DNA of 37,876 nt. Origin: a virus. Of the stretch, positions 2,278 to 20,680 are shown piece after piece. The notes under the pieces are model-generated. The model was not told where the DNA came from, did no database searches, and saw only the letters and a program-made list of their open reading frames with translations. The stretch is taken from IMG/VR virus record IMGVR_UViG_3300044712_001478, positions 1-37,876 of that record; one strand, written 5' to 3'. A program made the position numbers and the translations under genes. Position 1 is the stretch's first letter; every line of letters begins with the position of its first letter.

Positions 2278-2841
2278 TTAAATCCTTGGTTCTCTAAAGT
2301 TTTGTACGCAATCCCAAAATTCAGATTCTTTTCTCAAAAGTTCCTCAATGTATTTATCATCTCGATAAATTTCTAGCACTTTGCCTTCTAGGCCATTAAA
2401 ACTGAAGTAATAAGACTTTTCTAAACCTGAAACTTCTATCTGATGTTGAAGCTGAGGATAATATTTTTCTGGTATCTTTCCATCGAGGGCGCATTGGTAA
2501 TCTTTTTTACCTGGGCACTTAATTTCAACTATATTCTTACCAAATAGGTCAATTCCATCGAAAGAAGCGACCATGTAATCGATCTTTGGATGTTGCACGA
2601 CTTCGGGAAAAACAATTAGACCGGTCATTTTTTCGAATTCTCTTCTCGCCTGGTCTTCTAGGTCATGGCCTCGTTTCATCGCAAAATTCATAGCTTTCTG
2701 TTCGACTAAACCTAGTTTCTGTTCCCATAGTTGAAGAGGAGTAGTCCATGGACTTATTTGCATGATTATGGGTGCGTCACTGGCGCCAATTTTCGATCGG
2801 CGCCATTCAAGCCAAAATGGAGTATTTTGCGTTGGGATCAC
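2278..2841 (-). CDS. YqaJ-type viral exonuclease
   Basis: 187 residues, the expected length for lambda-exonuclease-like YqaJ proteins. These degrade the 5' strand of linear double-stranded DNA and hand the 3' overhang to an annealing protein such as RecT. Visible motifs: RRSKIGASDAP near residue 14 (the family helix with Gly-Ala-Ser), a RGHDLEDQARREFE helix near 58, the metal site SFDGID...IVEIKCPG around 93-112 (Asp, Glu-x-Lys), and YYPQLQHQ near 127. The start is a GTG overlapping the previous stop (TAGTG) with GAGG seven bases upstream. Its partner recT lies upstream but across a terminator-like stretch, so the two may be expressed separately. Confidence 0.88.
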   Translation of the reverse strand: MIPTQNTPFWLEWRRSKIGASDAPIIMQISPWTTPLQLWEQKLGLVEQKAMNFAMKRGHDLEDQARREFEKMTGLIVFPEVVQHPKIDYMVASFDGIDLFGKNIVEIKCPGKKDYQCALDGKIPEKYYPQLQHQIEVSGLEKSYYFSFNGLEGKVLEIYRDDKYIEELLRKESEFWDCVQNFREPRI

Positions 2842-3140
2842 TATTTTTCCTCTCTATTAAACTTTTCTACATCATTTTCAAATCTTTCTATAAGCTTCTT
2901 TCCTTCGCTTTCTGGTAGGTGTTTAGACCCTTCTATTAGATATTCTCTTGTTAGTTGAACAATGTCTGCATCTTTATCCAAACAAGCTATTTCATATTTT
3001 AAATATCTAAAGTTCAAATCACTCATTTTTCGCGAGTTTTCAAAATTTTCATTAGATATTTTTATGATTAAGAAAAACCCACATATATTTATGAGAATCA
3101 TAACAATCACTAGTAGAGAAAACCATATGGTTTTTTTCAT
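2841..3140 (-). CDS. Small membrane protein, 99 aa
   Basis: The ATG at 3140 is chosen because AAGGAAG lies just upstream and the protein then begins MKKTIWFSLLVIVMILINIC, a membrane anchor or signal anchor. A longer frame to 3242 would add a basic stretch with no better start site. The remainder is a charged helical domain of about 70 residues. The stop overlaps the exonuclease GTG start. Function unknown. Confidence 0.65.
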   Translation of the reverse strand: MKKTIWFSLLVIVMILINICGFFLIIKISNENFENSRKMSDLNFRYLKYEIACLDKDADIVQLTREYLIEGSKHLPESEGKKLIERFENDVEKFNREEK

Positions 3141-3242
3141 ATTTTCTTCCTTAGTGTTCCTATTAAATTTCCATTGTCGATATATCTTGAGAGCTATTTT
3201 AAGCTTTTCGTGTCTCACACTTAAAAGTCTGGGCCTTGACAT

Positions 3243-5875: not shown

Positions 5876-7036
5876 ATGTCAGAGCAAATCAAAAATATCG
5901 AAGTCGAAACAGAAATTGACAATCAAGCTGAAGAAGAATGTGTAAATGGATCTAGCAAGCATCAATATTTTGCACAAGTTCCAGAATTTTCTTTTCATCT
6001 TCTTCAAAATCCAGATTTCAGAGTATATGCAACATATATAAAAGTAATAGGGTGGAATGGCAAATGCTTTGCATCTAGAGAATATATTGCTGGTCTTTGT
6101 AAAATTGATGTTAAAACTCTTAATAGGGCAATAGAAAGGCTTTGTTTACCTTGTGAGGAATTGGGTGGTATTCCACTTATTGAGGTAAGAAGAAGGACTG
6201 CTTCAAACGGAAGAACCATGACAAATCAGGTTTTTCTAACTGATATTTGGGATCTGAATGTTGCCTTCACAAGAAAGGTAATTCAAGAAGCAAAAGAGCG
6301 AAAAGGGGAGGGGGGCACAATGCCCCATAGGGAGGGGGACAAAATTCCCCCCTCCCCCCTAATTTGCAGTGAAAAGGGGAGGGGGGCACAATTCCCCCCT
6401 GAGGGGGGCACAATTCCCCCCAAAGAATATTCTTCTCTTAAGAAGAGTATTGATAAAGAAACAACAACATCCGGAACGCGTGCGCGCGAAGACGCTGCTG
6501 CCGCTTCGGATCGCAAGGAGGACCTTGCTTTGGATCTTGGCGAAGACGCCGCTGTTTCGGATGTTGTTGTTTCTTCTATAGAAAAATTGAAGATTCAAGA
6601 AGCCTTGGTCAACATTCGATTCGCTGAGATAGACATCGTGGCCGTCATGAAACTTAATCCCACCTTCAAGCAAGTTGATAAAGCAATAGCTTGTCTACTT
6701 GGGAGTAAGACACCGACAAGTAATCCAATTGGTTATATTATCAAAGCTATAAGAGAAAATTGGGAGCCTGAAAAAAAAGTACAAAAAGAAATAGAGAAAG
6801 AAGAACAAAAGAAAATTGAGAAATCAATTCATGAAAAAATGATTGAATTTGAAAAGGCTATTCCAGAAGAGAAAAGGAACTTAGTTAAAGTTTATGATAC
6901 ATATTTACAAGTGAAAGTTCCAGGTTCTAAAGGTGGAAGAGATAATATTTATTATTCCGAATCATCTTTTAAAGATAAGTTCTTATGGCTATGTGATGAG
7001 ATTGTGAAAATGTCCAGCCTGAGGGCTTTCGCATGA
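5876..7036 (+). CDS. Replication initiator protein (phage O-like)
   Basis: 386 residues. Residues ~30-120 form a winged helix-turn-helix of the kind found in phage replication proteins (FASREYIAGLCKIDVKTLNRAIERL). A variable linker around 145-185 is encoded by the GC-rich iterons, and the C-terminal half has an NPIGYIIKAIRENWEPE motif seen in helicase-loading or DnaD-like initiator proteins, followed by a charged coiled coil. It probably binds its own gene's repeats to start replication with host polymerase; no phage polymerase or helicase was seen. GAGGG precedes the ATG. The stop overlaps the next start in ATGATGA. Confidence 0.8.
   Translation: MSEQIKNIEVETEIDNQAEEECVNGSSKHQYFAQVPEFSFHLLQNPDFRVYATYIKVIGWNGKCFASREYIAGLCKIDVKTLNRAIERLCLPCEELGGIPLIEVRRRTASNGRTMTNQVFLTDIWDLNVAFTRKVIQEAKERKGEGGTMPHREGDKIPPSPLICSEKGRGAQFPPEGGTIPPKEYSSLKKSIDKETTTSGTRAREDAAAASDRKEDLALDLGEDAAVSDVVVSSIEKLKIQEALVNIRFAEIDIVAVMKLNPTFKQVDKAIACLLGSKTPTSNPIGYIIKAIRENWEPEKKVQKEIEKEEQKKIEKSIHEKMIEFEKAIPEEKRNLVKVYDTYLQVKVPGSKGGRDNIYYSESSFKDKFLWLCDEIVKMSSLRAFA
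6300..6421. repeat. Iteron array inside the initiator gene (candidate origin)
   Basis: Four copies of a semi-palindromic repeat. Two are identical, GGGGGGCACAATTCCCCCC at 6381-6399 and 6403-6421, 22 bp apart (two helical turns); variants lie at 6310-6326 and 6334-6352. A 22-bp stretch at 6300-6321 recurs at 6371-6392. AT-rich DNA follows at 6422-6470, a plausible unwinding element. Iterons inside an initiator gene next to AT-rich DNA match the lambda origin plan. Confidence 0.72.
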
Positions 7037-14966: not shown

Positions 14967-14973
14967 GAAATGA

Positions 14974-15008
14974 CCCGACTCGGCACGTTGCTTCGTCGGG
15001 GTTCTTCC
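14974..15008 (+). terminator. Probable terminator after the head-assembly block
   Basis: CCCGAC (14974-14979) pairs with GTCGGG (14995-15000) around a structured loop, followed by a weak T-rich tail GTTCTTCCT. It lies 8 bases after the scaffold stop and before a new promoter. Confidence 0.55.
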
Positions 15009-15020
15009 TAAACCATAAAG

Positions 15021-15049
15021 TTGCTATAAACATTTTAGCGATATATATA
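15021..15049 (+). promoter_or_regulatory. Promoter for the 81-residue gene
   Basis: TTGCTA (15021-15026), 17 bp, then TATATA (15044-15049) within an ATATATATAG run. The same TTGCTA box with a 17-bp spacer is used at 18755, ahead of the HNH and capsid genes. Confidence 0.5.
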
Positions 15050-15066
15050 GATTTTGGCAAAAAAAT

Positions 15067-15312
15067 ATGTCTATTCCAGTGATAAGTCTAGCGAGTCTCT
15101 CGCATGAAGAGTTCAAAGAATTGGTAGGTGAAGGGAAGAAGCAGGAGATAGATGCTGCTTCGACTCTGGCGCAGGTATCACCGATTGCCGTTCCTGCGCC
15201 TTTTCCTATGCATAGGACTTTTACCTATGTCAAGCGGCTTTACAAGCTCGGAAGTGGATTGGCTATTATGAAGCTTTACAATGACAATGTTAAGCGAAGA
15301 TATAGCGCTTGA
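15067..15312 (+). CDS. Hypothetical protein, 81 aa, own promoter
   Basis: Starts MSIPVISLASLSHEEFKELV, is helical in the first half, then Pro/Ala-rich, with a basic C-terminal helix (YVKRLYKLGSGLAIMKLYNDNVKRRYS). It sits alone between a terminator and the integrase promoter, and the ribosome site is poor (only AAAAAAAT upstream). An independent transcription unit next to the integrase suggests lysogenic or regulatory expression. No family recognised. Confidence 0.6.
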   Translation: MSIPVISLASLSHEEFKELVGEGKKQEIDAASTLAQVSPIAVPAPFPMHRTFTYVKRLYKLGSGLAIMKLYNDNVKRRYSA

Positions 15313-15346
15313 CTTGTTAGTCTGCTAATTAAAGGAGTGATTACTA

Positions 15347-15375
15347 TTGAATTAATTTAAGCCTTTTGTTACACT
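15347..15375 (+). promoter_or_regulatory. Candidate integrase promoter
   Basis: TTGAAT (15347-15352), 17 bp, then TACACT (15370-15375), giving a start about 35 bases before the integrase ATG. Both boxes match the consensus at 4 of 6 positions. Confidence 0.42.
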
Positions 15376-15416
15376 AGCCCAACCCAAAGTTGTGCATGGT
15401 ATACAAAAGGCGAACG

Positions 15417-16427
15417 ATGATTAATTCTTTAATTGATTTACAATCAAATAATTTACAAATTCACGACAGCAAAGATTACACTTCAAAAGTAGATCCTTAC
15501 GTCGTTCAGTCGATGTCAAAAAGAACGAGAGAAGGTTACAAGGCAGATATGAAATATTTCTGGGAATGGATGAAACTTTCCAATCCTGGTGAATCCGTCG
15601 TTACCGAAGAGATCGTTATTAAACACATCTTTCATCATCTTGAAGGAATGCCTAAGGAAATCGAGAAACAGCTTATTGCTAAAAATGTAAAAAAAGACGC
15701 TGGAGTACATTCCTTTTCTCATGTCAAAAGGAGAATCGTTGCGTTATCAGTCTTTCATAAACTAAATGATCTTCCAAATCCTTGCAAAAGTGAGAAGGTG
15801 AAAGATCTTTTGCGCGCTATGCATAAGAGCAGAACATCATTGAAGAAAAGTAAGGCAATATCAAAGAAAGTCTTAGAGGACATTATTGCAACTTGTGATA
15901 AAGGCACCCTTATAGATATAAGAGACAAAGCTATTATTCTATTTGCTTTTTGCTCAGGTGGCCGCAGACGTTCTGAGATACAAGAAGCTTCAATGGAAGA
16001 CTTACAAAAGGTCGATAATGGAGAATATCTCTATAGAGTGGCTAAGAGTAAAACCGATCAAAAGGGAAAGGGGTTTAGCGTTCCGATAACTGGAAAGGCA
16101 GCGGAAGCACTTAAAGAATGGCTTGATAAATCAGGTATAAAATTCGGTAGAATTTTTCGTTCTATAAATAAATCTCAGGCATTAGGAGAAAGTTACCATC
16201 ACATGTCATTAACCGAGATGTTTAAGAGAAGGATTCGTCAAGCTGGATATGATGAATCCATTTATTCCCTACACTCCTTGCGTTCTGGTTTTGTTACGGA
16301 AGCAGGTAAACAAGGATGCTCACTTGGTGATACAATGGCTTTAACGGGACATAAAGACGTTGTTGTCGCTATGGGATATTTTCAAGCTGGTGATGTTTTC
16401 AACAACAAAGCAGCAAGGCTTATATGA
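15417..16427 (+). CDS. int: Tyrosine recombinase / integrase
   Basis: 336 residues. The ATG at 15417 is chosen because AAAGG lies six bases upstream; longer frames from 15390 (TTG) or 15396 have no ribosome site. The N-terminal part has a core-binding SAM-like domain (REGYKADMKYFWEWMKL). The catalytic domain has the full set: Arg in SGGRRRSEI (~183-185), Lys in AKSKTDQ (~212), HSLRSG (His 286, Arg 289), GHK (His 312) and the nucleophile Tyr 321 in AMGYFQ. It would integrate and excise the phage genome; the attachment site was not found by eye. Confidence 0.94.
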   Translation: MINSLIDLQSNNLQIHDSKDYTSKVDPYVVQSMSKRTREGYKADMKYFWEWMKLSNPGESVVTEEIVIKHIFHHLEGMPKEIEKQLIAKNVKKDAGVHSFSHVKRRIVALSVFHKLNDLPNPCKSEKVKDLLRAMHKSRTSLKKSKAISKKVLEDIIATCDKGTLIDIRDKAIILFAFCSGGRRRSEIQEASMEDLQKVDNGEYLYRVAKSKTDQKGKGFSVPITGKAAEALKEWLDKSGIKFGRIFRSINKSQALGESYHHMSLTEMFKRRIRQAGYDESIYSLHSLRSGFVTEAGKQGCSLGDTMALTGHKDVVVAMGYFQAGDVFNNKAARLI

Positions 16428-16780
16428 AGGATAAAACATATCTATATTTCTTTGTTGTTTATTTTAAACAAGAGCTTTTGAGGCCTCCTTATTTATTTGG
16501 TAGATATCTTAGTTGTTCAACCAAAGCACTTGATATAGCAAGAGATTTATCAGAACTAATTTTCTCAGGTGATGATGATTTCGATGGTAAGATGTTTGTT
16601 TTTAGGAGTGAGGATATCAGTTACATTGAAATTTTCCCTCTTGATGACGAGTTTGAGAAAGATAATTTCAAGGACAATGAACACGTTATTTCTTATCTAA
16701 AAAAAGTGGATATGGTCAGAGTTAATGAGGGAAAAAGTTATGGAAAAAAAAGTAAGCAATCTAACACGATTAGCAAATAA
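16424..16780 (+). CDS. Hypothetical protein coupled to the integrase, 118 aa
   Basis: The ATG overlaps the integrase stop (ATGA), so it is probably co-expressed. Beta-alpha pattern with an aromatic strand (TYLYFFVVYFKQELLRPPYLF) and an acidic centre (FSGDDDFDGKMFVF). Distinctly AT-rich. An excision-directing role is conceivable from position, but no helix-turn-helix is evident. Confidence 0.62.
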   Translation: MKDKTYLYFFVVYFKQELLRPPYLFGRYLSCSTKALDIARDLSELIFSGDDDFDGKMFVFRSEDISYIEIFPLDDEFEKDNFKDNEHVISYLKKVDMVRVNEGKSYGKKSKQSNTISK

Positions 16781-16844
16781 AACATTTTCTAGTCAACCTA
16801 GTGAAGATTTTGTTAAACTTGATAGACTTCCTCATTTAATATAG
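16740..16844 (+). CDS. Short hypothetical protein, 34 aa
   Basis: MEKKVSNLTRLANKTFSSQP... in another frame over the end of the preceding gene, with GAGG nine bases before the ATG. The overlap and ribosome site favour a real gene; little else can be said. Confidence 0.42.
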   Translation: MEKKVSNLTRLANKTFSSQPSEDFVKLDRLPHLI

Positions 16845-16898
16845 AAGAGACTAGAGAGTACTATAAAAACAAGATGAAAAATGAGATATTAGATTGAC

Positions 16899-17132
16899 AT
16901 GAAAGATTATGATATAAGTAGTGATAATATCTTCAAAGATCTTGGTTTGAAAGATGCTGATAAATTGAAAGAAAAAACAATTCGTAAGATAAACAGCAAA
17001 CAATCTTGTTTAATAGATTCACTGGAAGAACAGTTTGATTTGCAAGAGTTTTTAATAGATCAATCAGATTTATTTATATATTGTGAAATTAGAAAAGGAT
17101 ATGAAGAAGAAATGAAAGAGGAAAAGAAATGA
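16899..17132 (+). CDS. Hypothetical protein with an antitoxin-like N-terminus, 77 aa
   Basis: NIFKDLGLKDADKLKEKTIRKI near residue 10 resembles the opening helix of HigA-type antitoxins (typically a DLG-x-x-DAEEL pattern), but the helix-turn-helix that normally follows is missing, replaced by an acidic segment. It may be a degenerate or repurposed antitoxin. The stop overlaps the next start (ATGA). Ribosome site weak. Confidence 0.5.
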   Translation: MKDYDISSDNIFKDLGLKDADKLKEKTIRKINSKQSCLIDSLEEQFDLQEFLIDQSDLFIYCEIRKGYEEEMKEEKK

Positions 17133-17374
17133 AGTTTCAAATAGTCCTACACTTTAAAGATAGAGAAGAGTTTTCTTATATCTTAAATGTTGATCAAAAA
17201 TTCAAGAATATTGAGGATTACATAACAGACTACATAAAAGAAATATTCGAGATGAATGTTTTATTTGACTGGGCTTATGACCTTGAAAGCGATTGCGAAA
17301 GTTTTTATTTTGGTTTGAACTTAGAGGGGTTACAAATGGTTGAGATGTGTATTATGAATAAAAAGGAAGAATAA
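17129..17374 (+). CDS. Hypothetical protein, 81 aa
   Basis: Acidic alpha-beta protein MKFQIVLHFKDREEFSYIL..., coupled to the preceding gene (ATGA) with GAGGAAAAG upstream. Size, charge and base composition match its neighbours in the AT-rich cargo cluster. No family recognised. Confidence 0.6.
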   Translation: MKFQIVLHFKDREEFSYILNVDQKFKNIEDYITDYIKEIFEMNVLFDWAYDLESDCESFYFGLNLEGLQMVEMCIMNKKEE

Positions 17375-17377
17375 TAG

Positions 17378-17620
17378 ATGAAGAAATATAGAGTTACGTT
17401 TTGGTGTTTAGCGAATCCTCTTTATGAAACTGAGATTAAATTCAAGCCTGGAGATATTATGTCTCATGATGATAAAAATTTCGTTCGTATTACAGATTTA
17501 ATGGATATGTATAACTTTAACTGTATAAATGGATACTATCAAGAAGATTGTGGTAATGAATTGAATTTGATAAATTTAAGTAATGTTCAAAGAATACAAT
17601 TTGAGGAACTTGAAGAGTAA
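17378..17620 (+). CDS. Hypothetical protein, 80 aa
   Basis: MKKYRVTFWCLANPLYETEIKF... with two predicted strands, a middle acidic loop, and an acidic end (IQFEELEE). GGAAG lies upstream. The fold may resemble the preceding 81-residue protein (both open with a basic strand then an acidic helix), but this is not firm. Function unknown. Confidence 0.58.
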   Translation: MKKYRVTFWCLANPLYETEIKFKPGDIMSHDDKNFVRITDLMDMYNFNCINGYYQEDCGNELNLINLSNVQRIQFEELEE

Positions 17621-17635
17621 AGAAGAGTTTTTTTT

Positions 17636-17863
17636 ATGACGAAATTCAATATTAATGATTCTTTAGATGAACATCTTCAAGACGATGAATTTAGGGCTAA
17701 ATTTATAAATGCAGCTTTTAAAGAGGATTATGACATATTCATGCTATGTGTTGATGACGTCATAAGAGCTAACAGGAAGCGAAAGGATAATGAATTTAAA
17801 AGACAACTTAAGAGACTTGTCGAACAAGACAAGGAACTTATGGATAAATTAGCAAAGAGATAA
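17636..17863 (+). CDS. Antitoxin-like protein, 75 aa
   Basis: FNINDSLDEHLQDDEFRAKFINAAFKEDYDIFMLCVDDVIRA (residues 4-45) follows the N-terminal pattern of addiction-module antidotes that accompany HigB/RelE toxins (FD...YL.dde..a.yL..A.e..D......l.dv.RA). The DNA-binding half is absent; instead a basic coiled coil follows. No toxin gene is recognisable next to it. A decoy or anti-defence antitoxin role is speculative. Confidence 0.5.
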   Translation: MTKFNINDSLDEHLQDDEFRAKFINAAFKEDYDIFMLCVDDVIRANRKRKDNEFKRQLKRLVEQDKELMDKLAKR

Positions 17864-17867
17864 GTAT

Positions 17868-18368
17868 ATGTGTAATGGTTTTTTTGATAAATATAGTGAA
17901 TTAGGTTTAACTAACAGTCTTAAAACTAATTTTTTTGACTTTGTTATTTTGAGATATCTGTATTTTTATGAAGATTGTTTTGAGTTAAAAAAGACAATTT
18001 TTGATAATTTATCAAGGGATGATTTTATAGATCGTGAAATGGGTATGTTATATCTTTTTTATAAAGAAAAACAAAACATTTCCATTAATGATTTAATATC
18101 GAACAATTTAAATGAATTTTTCTTTTCCATTTCAGATTTTCAGATTCGTATTAGTGAGTTTGATTTGTTGATTTGCATTCAAAGAATATTGGAAAGATCT
18201 TGGATAAAGAAGGTTGAAGGGATTGGTTATGATTATTATAACGCAAAAACAAATTCAAAAACAAATGATCATGATTTAGAAATTATTAGAAAAAGTCATT
18301 ATTTTGAAGCTAGAAATATTCCAAGTGTTGGCGTATGTATACCAGATGATATAGAAGAAAAGGAGTAA
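17868..18368 (+). CDS. Hypothetical protein, 166 aa
   Basis: Very AT-rich gene for a Phe/Ile/Asp-rich protein (TNSLKTNFFDFVILRYLYFYEDCFEL...). Helical first two thirds, then a short C-terminal part (EARNIPSVGVCIPDDIEEKE). Largest member of the cargo cluster. The composition differs from the structural genes and suggests a separate origin. No family recognised. Confidence 0.62.
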   Translation: MCNGFFDKYSELGLTNSLKTNFFDFVILRYLYFYEDCFELKKTIFDNLSRDDFIDREMGMLYLFYKEKQNISINDLISNNLNEFFFSISDFQIRISEFDLLICIQRILERSWIKKVEGIGYDYYNAKTNSKTNDHDLEIIRKSHYFEARNIPSVGVCIPDDIEEKE

Positions 18369-18370
18369 AT

Positions 18371-18547
18371 ATGGAATGGATACAAACATTGTTTATTGTT
18401 GGAACTTTAGGAAGCTTTACGTACTGGATGTTTAGTAAGCTAGATAGTGATGTAAAAATGTTAGCTGCTAGACAAGATAGTCAAACACAGAGAATTGATC
18501 AGTTGTACCAGATGTTCATTGACTTACTGAAGGAAGGGAAGAAATAG
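18371..18547 (+). CDS. Small membrane protein with coiled-coil tail (MEW family)
   Basis: 58 residues with AGGAG seven bases upstream. Residues 3-21 are a membrane segment (WIQTLFIVGTLGSFTYWMF). The tail ends RIDQLYQMFIDLLKEG, which pairs with RTDSLYNMFYELVKNQ at 7435-7686. The N-terminus pairs with the 1275-1493 protein. Third copy of this design in the genome. The stop codon lies in a 15-base sequence repeated nearly exactly after the HNH gene. Confidence 0.7.
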   Translation: MEWIQTLFIVGTLGSFTYWMFSKLDSDVKMLAARQDSQTQRIDQLYQMFIDLLKEGKK

Positions 18548-18555
18548 CGTGAATC
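18541..18555. repeat. Near-direct repeat flanking the HNH cassette (left)
   Basis: GAAATAGCGTGAATC matches GAAATAGCGCGAGTC at 19381-19395 at 13 of 15 positions. The two copies bracket the promoter, leader and HNH gene and may mark the edges of an inserted cassette. Confidence 0.45.
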
Positions 18556-18754
18556 CTCCATTTGGTGGTGGAATATCCGACGTCAAGTGGAGGATTTACA
18601 GATAGTCTCCCTACTGGGGGATTAGTGCCACAACCTGTGGCACTAATACTCATGGTGAATAGCTCCGCTGATTGGGGTGGATTTTGTTTCTTCTTGTTTC
18701 TAACTCGATTGCATCTAATCTAGGCAAAAAGCCTAGTCCTTGATATTCAATTAC
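18548..18754. other. Gene-free hairpin region before the HNH promoter
   Basis: No gene seen. It holds AATCCTCCA (18552-18560) with TGGAGGATT (18588-18596); a perfect 12-bp stem, ATTAGTGCCACA (18621-18632) with TGTGGCACTAAT (18636-18647), on a three-base loop; and CTAGGC (18720-18725) with GCCTAG (18731-18736). None has a T-run. They may act together as a factor-dependent terminator or be protein-binding palindromes separating cargo from late genes. Confidence 0.55.
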
Positions 18755-18783
18755 TTGCTATTTCATTCCCATTCATCTATAAT
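18755..18783 (+). promoter_or_regulatory. Promoter for the HNH and capsid genes
   Basis: TTGCTA (18755-18760), 17-bp spacer, TATAAT (18778-18783): a perfect -10 box and a 4/6 -35 box. The predicted transcript starts near 18790, exactly where the paired leader RNA begins. Confidence 0.68.
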
Positions 18784-18790
18784 GTTGCGC

Positions 18791-18853
18791 ATATACCTAG
18801 GGGGCACCCGAAAAGCGTATTCCTAACGCCTGGTATATCTTTTCTTAGGAATA
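18791..18853 (+). ncRNA. Candidate structured leader RNA with interleaved helices
   Basis: ATATACC (18791-18797) can pair with GGTATAT (18832-18838), while TATTCCTAA (18818-18826) can pair with TTAGGAATA (18845-18853). These pairings cross, so they form either a pseudoknot or two alternative folds. A short stem GCG/CGC (18815-18817, 18827-18829) would present the 9-nt segment as a loop. The element ends five bases before the AGGAGG site of the HNH gene, so it could switch its translation. No known RNA family was recognised. Confidence 0.5.
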
Positions 18854-18868
18854 ACTATAGGAGGTTAT

Positions 18869-19375
18869 ATGTCTAATCATGAAATCATCGAATGGAAAAA
18901 ACAGCATCCAAAAGCTACTGAACAAGAGATAATGAAACAACGTATCAAGTTTCATACTAAACAAAATGGCGAATGTCTTGAGTGGACTGCTACAATTTCA
19001 AATGGATATGGAACCTTTGAGCATAAGGGAAAAATGATGAATGCTTCTCGTGCTGCTTGGATTGCTACTTATGGGAATATTCCTAAAGGAATGTTAGTGC
19101 TTCATCATTGCGATAATCGAGCTTGTTGTAATGTAGATCATCTTTTTCTAGGTACTCATAAAGACAACACAAGAGACATGGTACAAAAAAAAAGAGATCG
19201 TTGGGATACTTGTAGAAAATTCCCTGTTGGAACTAGAGAAAAGGTTGGAGAGCTTAGAGAATCAGGAAAAATGTATCGAGAAATTATGGTAGAACTTGGT
19301 TTAACGATGGACCAAGTCAAGAGCCTTTTGCAGAATTATAAAAGAAACTTGCGCATAAATAAGGATGTAGAATAA
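18869..19375 (+). CDS. HNH homing endonuclease (free-standing)
   Basis: 168 residues with a strong AGGAGG four bases before the ATG. The HNH_3-type core is clear: CLEWTATISNGYGTFEHKGK (35-55), ASRAAWIATYGNIPKGM, then VLHHCDNRACCNVDHLFLGTHKDNTRDM (about 80-107) with the metal and zinc ligands His-His, Cys-x4-Cys and Asn. The C-terminal helices (EKVGELRESGKMYREIMVELGLTMDQVKSLL) form a DNA-binding helix-turn-helix. It lies outside any intron, 123 bases before the capsid gene, whose intron lacks an ORF, so it may drive that intron's spread by cutting intron-free capsid genes. Confidence 0.88.
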   Translation: MSNHEIIEWKKQHPKATEQEIMKQRIKFHTKQNGECLEWTATISNGYGTFEHKGKMMNASRAAWIATYGNIPKGMLVLHHCDNRACCNVDHLFLGTHKDNTRDMVQKKRDRWDTCRKFPVGTREKVGELRESGKMYREIMVELGLTMDQVKSLLQNYKRNLRINKDVE

Positions 19376-19498: not shown

Positions 19499-20680
19499 AT
19501 GTCATTTCCTTCTGGAATAACAAATATCAACAACATGGCTCCTGAGCTTCCCTTACAGGCTAGCGAGGACTTGCTTTCAACGCCCATAAAATGAATGTGG
19601 GCTTTAAACCTTCTCTGATTGGCTTGGAAACCCGATGGGGTGACAAGGCGGAAGCAGGCGAAAGCCGGGCACCGTGAACGACTAAGTGAGAGGGCACCTG
19701 AAAGGGTGATGCGATAGTCTGAACTCGACGAATACAAGAAGGTCGAGAGGGAGAAATAACAAAATCCCCGCCTAGAAATAGGTCATAAAGCAACAGAAAG
19801 GTTCAATTTAATTCACTCTTTTGGGGTGGATCTGCACCATGCGGAAGCCTATATCGGCAAGACAACCCGCATGAGCCGTTTCGAGCGCCTTTCTACGGAT
19901 GGAGGACAACTGGATGGATCTGGTATTGATCCAGCCTCTGAAGTTCCCGTTCGTTCTGATATCGACGCCACAATGGAAATCTACGCTAAGAGTATCGTGA
20001 CCAATGAGCAAGTCGTCTTGTACGAAAACTCCAAGACCTTAACGAAGTTTACGGCTTTGCTTGGCCAGTGGCTACGAGAAAAAGAAGACCTACTCATGCG
20101 CGACTTATTCGCCTCTAGCGTCTCTTACATTAATGCTACGGGGGGTTTGAATGGTGACCAACCTTCTAACATCTCTTTAAATGATATCAATAACATCGAA
20201 ACAATTTTGCTAGGCAACGACGCAAGGACAATGCTTACCAATATCGAAGCGATGAATAAATTCGGTACTGGACCTACTAGAGATGCCTTCGTTGCTTTGG
20301 CTCACACAAACTTGACGGCAGATTTGCAAAAGGTTCAAGGGGTACTTCTAAGAGCTAACTATCCAGAAACTGAAAATATTCGACCGGAAGAATATTGCGC
20401 CGTTTCTCGATTCCGCTTCTTTGTCTCTTCGAAAGCCAACAAAATTCCAAGTGCTTCGATGGCTGGACATACAGTTTATACTATCCCAATGTATGGACTT
20501 GAAGCAGCTGCGAAAATTGAGCAAAACAACTATACGGCAGTCATTGGATATCGTCCTCCATGGGTTGTCTCCTCTGTTGCTCAAAATTGCCAATTGTACG
20601 CGAAATTTGCGATTGCTCGCGCAATTACAAATCAAAACTGGATTTCCGGATTGAATGTAACAACCTTACAAGCTTCATAA
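19499..20680 (+). CDS. Major capsid protein (N4-gp56 family), split by a group I intron
   Basis: Exon 1 is 19499-19587 (29 codons plus AT) and exon 2 is 19801-20680. Splicing makes codon 30 ATG and gives a 322-residue protein reading ...LLSTP-M-FNLIHSFGVDLHHAEAYIGKT. The restored N-terminus has the N4-gp56 capsid pattern (a helix, HSFG, GKT-x-RxxRFERL, an acidic loop, then NEQVVLYENSKTLTKFTALLGQWL). Without splicing, translation stops at the TGA at 19592-19594 after 31 residues. The GTG at 19826 is only a false internal start. GAGGTG precedes the ATG. It forms the icosahedral shell. Confidence 0.88.
19588..19800 (+). ncRNA. Group I self-splicing intron in the capsid gene
   Basis: 213 nt, no ORF. 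P1 pairs exon GCCCAU (19582-19587) with intron GUGGGC (19597-19602), placing a U-G wobble at the 5' splice site. P10 pairs exon 2 GUUCA (19801-19805) with intron UGAAU (19592-19596). P7 is GACUA (19680-19684) with UAGUC (19715-19719). P8 is CACC/GGUG. P9 is CUCGAC (19724-19729) with GUCGAG (19742-19747). A GGC-GAAA-GCC hairpin lies in the P4-P6 region and a CCUA-GAAA-UAGG hairpin near the end. The intron ends in G at 19800. All are hallmarks of group I introns. Confidence 0.93.

Follow-up and report, generated by a model that had tools for sequence, protein, structure and literature searches.

Introns that interrupt the virion genes of phages have been described before. The capsid gene of mycobacteriophage LittleE contains an intron of ~819 bp, on whose opposite strand lies a nuclease frame, and the tail-gene intron of BAKA and Optimus is ORF-less (265 bp in BAKA). 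These introns are thought to be group I introns and their splicing was shown by RT-PCR (PMC3706429). The capsid-gene intron of phage Tuc2009 is a further case, according to the citation given in PMC3706429. A second set of related systems is that of collaborative homing, which includes psbA of the cyanophage S-PM2 with F-CphI, the T3/T7-like phages, and the ICP1 terminase with a T5orf172 nuclease (PMC3984707, PMC10448857). Phage capsid-gene introns, as well as ORF-less introns that have a free-standing nuclease gene next to them, are already known (PMC3706429, PMC3984707, PMC10448857). The intron presented here, its insertion site, its allele series, its association with an HNH endonuclease and the capsid-gene hotspot are new; no published description of any of them was found in the part of the literature covered.

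The window, which is the whole stretch of DNA analyzed, comprises the 37,876 bases of a virus record and has a G+C content of 39%. Its major capsid gene is interrupted by a group I intron, inserted between the second and third bases of codon 30. The gene is organized as follows:

19499-19587, + strand: capsid exon 1, 89 nt, covering codons 1-29 plus the first two bases of codon 30; it abuts exon 2 in 80 intronless relatives
19588-19800, + strand: ORF-less group I intron, 213 nt, the final base being the conserved G; supported by same-site alleles, covariation and a covariance model
19801-20680, + strand: capsid exon 2

In the unspliced RNA, the frame of exon 1 reaches a stop codon two codons past 19587. 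Joining 19499-19587 to 19801-20680 yields a 322-codon open reading frame, whose product scores 73.0 bits against the N4-gp56 profile TIGR04387 (NCBI cut-off 60) and aligns with profile positions 1-270. The original prediction, that a 213-nt intron splits codon 30 and that its removal restores an N4-gp56-type protein of 322 residues, is borne out; the N4-gp56 match starts at the first profile position. The capsid also shows a weak match to PHROG 1357, annotated as 'major head protein'. Neither Pfam nor a tblastn search of annotated phages gave a match for the capsid.

The coordinates of the intron are exact. In a scan of viral contigs, eighty loci contain an uninterrupted capsid gene that lacks precisely this segment, with 85-90% protein identity across all or nearly all of the 322 residues (some alignments miss the first few residues only). 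In the nucleotide alignment of these intronless relatives the junction is seamless. Intronless relatives of the capsid are also found on two MAG contigs, labelled Bacteroidetes and Nitrospiraceae. Seven other phage contigs (L198, L204, L206, L207, L209, L210 and L219) carry an intron at the identical base, and the eight same-site introns, the window included, have 207-227 nt. The first five were found with a pattern that joins the P7 strand of the intron to the start of exon 2, and L210 and L219 by using the neighbouring HNH protein alone as query. A third pattern, placed on the 3' end of the intron, returned these same seven contigs and no additional capsid locus. Three contigs were fetched twice (L204 is L212, L207 is L211 and L219 is L232). 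Several candidates were rejected: L205 and L208, matched by the P7/exon 2 pattern, do not belong to this capsid and lack an intron core, and 12 of the 19 matches of the 3'-end pattern are likewise not this capsid and have no intron core. L096, a distant capsid with 39% identity, was discarded as a same-site case, its insertion being apparently ~4 nt away.

The elements of the intron are the following:

19582-19587 (GCCCAU, exon) with 19597-19602 (GUGGGC, guide), + strand: P1, with U.G at the splice site; two pairs have compensatory exon/intron changes in the eight alleles
19592-19596 (UGAAU, intron) with 19801-19805 (GUUCA, exon 2), + strand: P10; G-C becomes A-U in L206 and L210
19609-19615 with 19688-19694, + strand: P3; double changes in six of seven pairs (26-core alignment)
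19623-19626 with 19644-19647, + strand: P4, which encloses P5; covariation alignments
19630-19633 with 19638-19641, + strand: P5; covariation alignments
19649-19651 with 19672-19674 and 19654-19655 with 19669-19670, + strand: P6/P6a; every pair covaries and 100% are paired in the 26-core alignment
19680-19684 with 19715-19719, + strand: P7, which encloses the 3' strand of P3 and P8; compensatory changes in L210 and L219
19695-19698 with 19705-19708, + strand: P8; covaries in the 26-core alignment
19724-19729 with 19742-19747, + strand: P9; double changes in five of six pairs
19749-19751 with 19766-19768, as drawn, + strand: P9.1
19771-19774 with 19779-19782, + strand: P9.2

Every feature foreseen for the intron is there, namely P1 with a U-G pair at the splice site, P10, P7, P8, P9 and the terminal G. 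P2 is not evident in the intron, in which the spacing from the guide to P3 is six bases.

Across the eight alleles, the structure formed by P1, P3-P9.2 and P10 has 97.1% of its cells paired, compared with 39-47% in slid controls. Twenty-three pairs are changed on both sides, with 38 double changes in total, a value reached by none of 500 shuffles. The guide of P1 tracks the exon: ACGCCCAT occurs with GTGGGC, ACGCCGAT with GTCGGC (L207 and L219) and ACCCCGAT with GTCGGG (L210). P10 tracks exon 2 in the same manner (GTTCA with TGAAT; GTTTA with TAAAT in L206). The exon changes matched by the intron strands of P1 and P10 are synonymous. In P7, pairing is kept through A-U to U-A in L210 and C-G to G-C in L219. 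In a larger set, with 26 cores drawn from many phages, 124 cells are doubly changed, and here too none of 500 shuffles reaches this value. P7 is invariant in this set because the search pattern fixed it, and its covariation rests on L210 and L219, which were found through the HNH protein. The covariance model R2, built from 18 introns with the window left out and with the structure from RNAalifold, places its sole match within the window at 19604-19725 (123.8 bits, E ~2e-25). The score of another model, R1, for the window is not taken as proof, since R1 includes the window sequence.

Given established group I chemistry, it is very probable that this ORF-less intron excises itself from the capsid mRNA to leave the full N4-gp56 capsid of 322 aa. 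The intron would be transcribed within the capsid mRNA and then fold into its P3-P8 core, with P1 and its U.G pair holding the 5' splice site and P10 holding exon 2. Two transesterifications, the first started by guanosine as in known group I introns, would then excise the intron. The product would be the mRNA for the full-length capsid protein.

Introns are inserted in about eight regions of this capsid family, which makes it an intron hotspot. A core pattern search returned at least 120 stretches. Among the matches listed, 39 loci combine an R1 core match with a match to this capsid family; most of these have the intron placed between segments of the capsid. The insertions, again among the matches listed, are near residues 30, 103-106, 137-138, 148-152, 185-190, 219-235, 265 and ~307 of the window capsid, positions that are approximate except at gap-free joins. 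Some capsid genes hold two or three introns. Loci of this kind include the following:

L087, L088, L100, L103, L106, L111 and L118: same-clade introns in related capsid genes
L119, L121, L136, L145, L170, L172, L202 and others: same-clade introns in related capsid genes

Two of the same-site contigs contain a second intron in the capsid gene. In L207 it spans 2464-3183, near residue ~100, and contains an opposite-strand LAGLIDADG frame (2551-2982, 143 aa) that falls just under the Pfam cut-off; this intron scores 27.6 bits against RF00028, below the cut-off of 50. In L198 it spans 6420-6778, near residue ~265, with its core at 6429-6548. Introns of the same clade, unannotated as such, are also found in the coat gene of podovirus ctn9Y15 (MW202674, L082, 2993-3113) and in Desulfovibrio phage 7757 (PV062637, L083, 2001-2131).

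The hosts of the same-site intron are scattered. On the capsid tree, intron presence requires eight changes for eight rows (AU p 1e-5), and on the tree of the downstream tail gene seven changes for seven rows, each forced by supported branches (AU p 9e-8). The introns themselves cluster against those of other sites, with three changes compared with 7.7 in shuffles (none of 500 as low), and their union in one clade is not rejected (p 0.37). The divergence of the introns is unrelated to that of the capsids (rho -0.05). Scattered hosts and clustered introns fit a single intron lineage that would have spread horizontally into one site, and the incongruence between host and intron trees favours transfer. 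Ancient presence of the intron followed by many losses would also be compatible with these trees.

A candidate partner for such spread lies immediately upstream:

18869-19375, + strand: gene for a free-standing HNH_3 endonuclease of 168 aa, the likely partner of the intron in mobility

The gene ends 123 nt before the ATG of the capsid and 212 nt upstream of the insertion site. The locus has in this way the feature of collaborative-homing pairs, namely an ORF-less intron with an adjacent free-standing gene for a homing-type endonuclease. Close relatives of the HNH protein, in L204, L206, L207, L210 and, truncated, in L219, directly precede the intron-containing capsid gene. Including the window, the intron is present in all six contigs with this HNH clade, and the clade occurs in none of the 80 intronless loci (Fisher p 5e-8, for contigs neither independent nor randomly sampled). 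The HNH carriers are scattered on the capsid tree as well (AU p 8e-5). The HNH motif is intact in the window protein, for which a search of solved structures matched a C-terminal repeat only.

It is rather likely, judging from these genomic patterns, that the intron spread by homing in trans with the free-standing HNH endonuclease as its partner. The enzyme would cleave capsid alleles that lack the intron, at its insertion site or close by, and the HNH gene, exon 1 and the intron would all be copied across during repair. Several observations stand against this partnership. L198 and L209 have the same-site intron without this HNH clade. The window protein lacks the N-terminal cysteine-rich module of ~55 residues carried by its relatives, which have 223-245 aa. 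Two further points speak against a recent joint transfer. The exon flanks of the insertion site show no excess similarity, in a sample whose pairs are all saturated at synonymous sites, and the HNH and intron distances are discordant (rho -0.65, ten pairs), which leaves a single shared history of the HNH gene and the intron unsupported.

Some of these observations also lend weight to a different account, in which the intron is real and splices, the HNH gene encodes an unrelated homing endonuclease with the gap between the scaffold and capsid genes as its own hotspot, and the association reflects linkage or old shared ancestry with repeated loss. Besides the missing co-conversion signal and the discordant distances, this account draws on the contents of the gap. 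HNH genes of other types occupy it in 10 of 76 intronless loci (L012, L032-L036, L063, L081, L006 and L057; those of L006 and L057 are 36-39% relatives of the window HNH), and L209 has a different HNH at 699-956, so that the gap is a hotspot for endonucleases in general. On the other hand, the clade that precedes the window capsid is always found with the intron and never at an intronless locus. Moreover, the hosts are polyphyletic for both the intron and the HNH gene, and vertical descent therefore requires many paired losses. An unrelated endonuclease is a plausible explanation that nevertheless seems the less probable one; homing in trans with the HNH partner is retained as the working interpretation. 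In the 76 intronless relatives the gap measures 116-2289 nt. The window has instead a stretch of 4.5 kb between the two genes, in which 14967-18868 contains a phage integrase (15390-16427) and small ORFs.

The HNH gene of the window starts just after a structured RNA:

18790-18853, + strand: int-alpA RNA (RF02996); the HNH start codon follows 15 nt downstream
18790-18868 of the window, L206:580-657, L207:1045-1126 and L006:3349-3429: int-alpA RNA with the stretch to the HNH gene
L210:2640-2717 (below threshold) and L212:4739-4820 (by eye): int-alpA RNA with the stretch to the HNH gene

In the relatives, too, the RNA lies ~15-20 nt before the HNH start codon. In 27 of 45 loci, the loop of its second hairpin is complementary, by at least six Watson-Crick pairs, to the stretch before the ribosome site, compared with 9% of shuffles. 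In 79 viral stretches with the motif, the start codon is mostly 71-79 nt after the pattern; many of the downstream genes are HNH endonucleases and many others are one primase-like gene. A hairpin around the Shine-Dalgarno sequence of the HNH gene was put to a crude shuffle test, which was non-discriminating (null 51%). A broader and more tentative proposal, on the doubtful side as a whole, is that the capsid intron makes up, with the HNH gene, a two-part unit of collaborative homing in which the int-alpA RNA controls HNH translation, and that one clade of small group I introns has repeatedly invaded the capsid family. If true, a structured leader would gate a nuclease that spreads a separate ribozyme. 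The HNH neighbour, the same-site alleles and the hotspot were all missed by the original prediction.

A reading without splicing is highly improbable. It takes the capsid to be the 284-aa product that starts at GTG 19826, and the 213 nt to be a structured leader or a decayed insertion. This frame exists: 19826-20680 on the + strand is the longest mechanical ORF, a shortened reading of exon 2, and scores as N4-gp56 by itself, with a match that begins at profile position 42. Rfam provides a second argument in its favour, with no group I match: RF00028 (Intron_gpI) detects nothing in the window at the gathering threshold or up to E 10, and nothing at gathering in the seven same-site loci, L103 and L082. 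The lack of a group I score had been named beforehand as a sign against the intron. The silence of Rfam is counted as a gap in the model, which also misses the same-site relatives despite their unambiguous covariation; RF00028 is reported to leave some group I subgroups largely unaligned (Weglewska et al., PMC11878797). Against the 284-aa reading, the intronless homologues have the 30 N-terminal residues, conserved and without a break, exon 1 keeps its reading phase in the seven other interrupted alleles as in the window, and the pairings of P1 and P10, which tie the intron to both exons, covary. Homologues devoid of those 30 residues had been named beforehand as another sign against the intron, and the relatives do not bear this out. 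The truncated call had been anticipated, and the corresponding misannotation is found in the deposited relative MW202674, in which the intron region is a 'hypothetical protein' between two 'P22 coat protein' CDSs. A group II intron, an intein or an assembly error, considered on account of the silent group I model and without any supporting evidence found, is refuted by the covarying group I core with its P7/P3 pseudoknot and by the same-base introns of seven other contigs, the intein also by the stops in the frame continuing exon 1.

The intron matters beyond this locus. Small group I introns of a clade that is common in phages split the capsid gene and go undetected by the group I model of Rfam. 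This gene is widely used to recognise phages, and capsid genes in viral metagenomes can therefore be truncated or split in annotation. The eight same-site alleles, the 80 empty alleles and the HNH clade that tracks the intron constitute a natural experiment on intron spread with an external nuclease.

The intron of the window shares the catalytic class of RF00028 by its anatomy (P3-P8 core, P7, U.G in P1, P10 and terminal G), although it is unmatched by that model, which is a detection tool and not a criterion for group I. It is 81% identical to the coat-gene intron of ctn9Y15 over intron positions 25-137, and both interrupt a coat or capsid gene; the coat protein of ctn9Y15 is annotated as P22-type, whereas the window capsid is unmatched in phage records. 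With LittleE and BAKA/Optimus, likened by description only, it shares a phage virion gene as host, the final U of exon 1 and the final G of the intron. It differs from LittleE in the phage, the capsid and the site, as well as in its 213 nt and in the nuclease gene placed outside the intron. With the collaborative-homing systems, it shares an ORF-less intron in an essential gene and a free-standing nuclease gene beside it. In the window, the host gene is the capsid gene and the predicted nuclease is an HNH_3 protein encoded 5' of exon 1.
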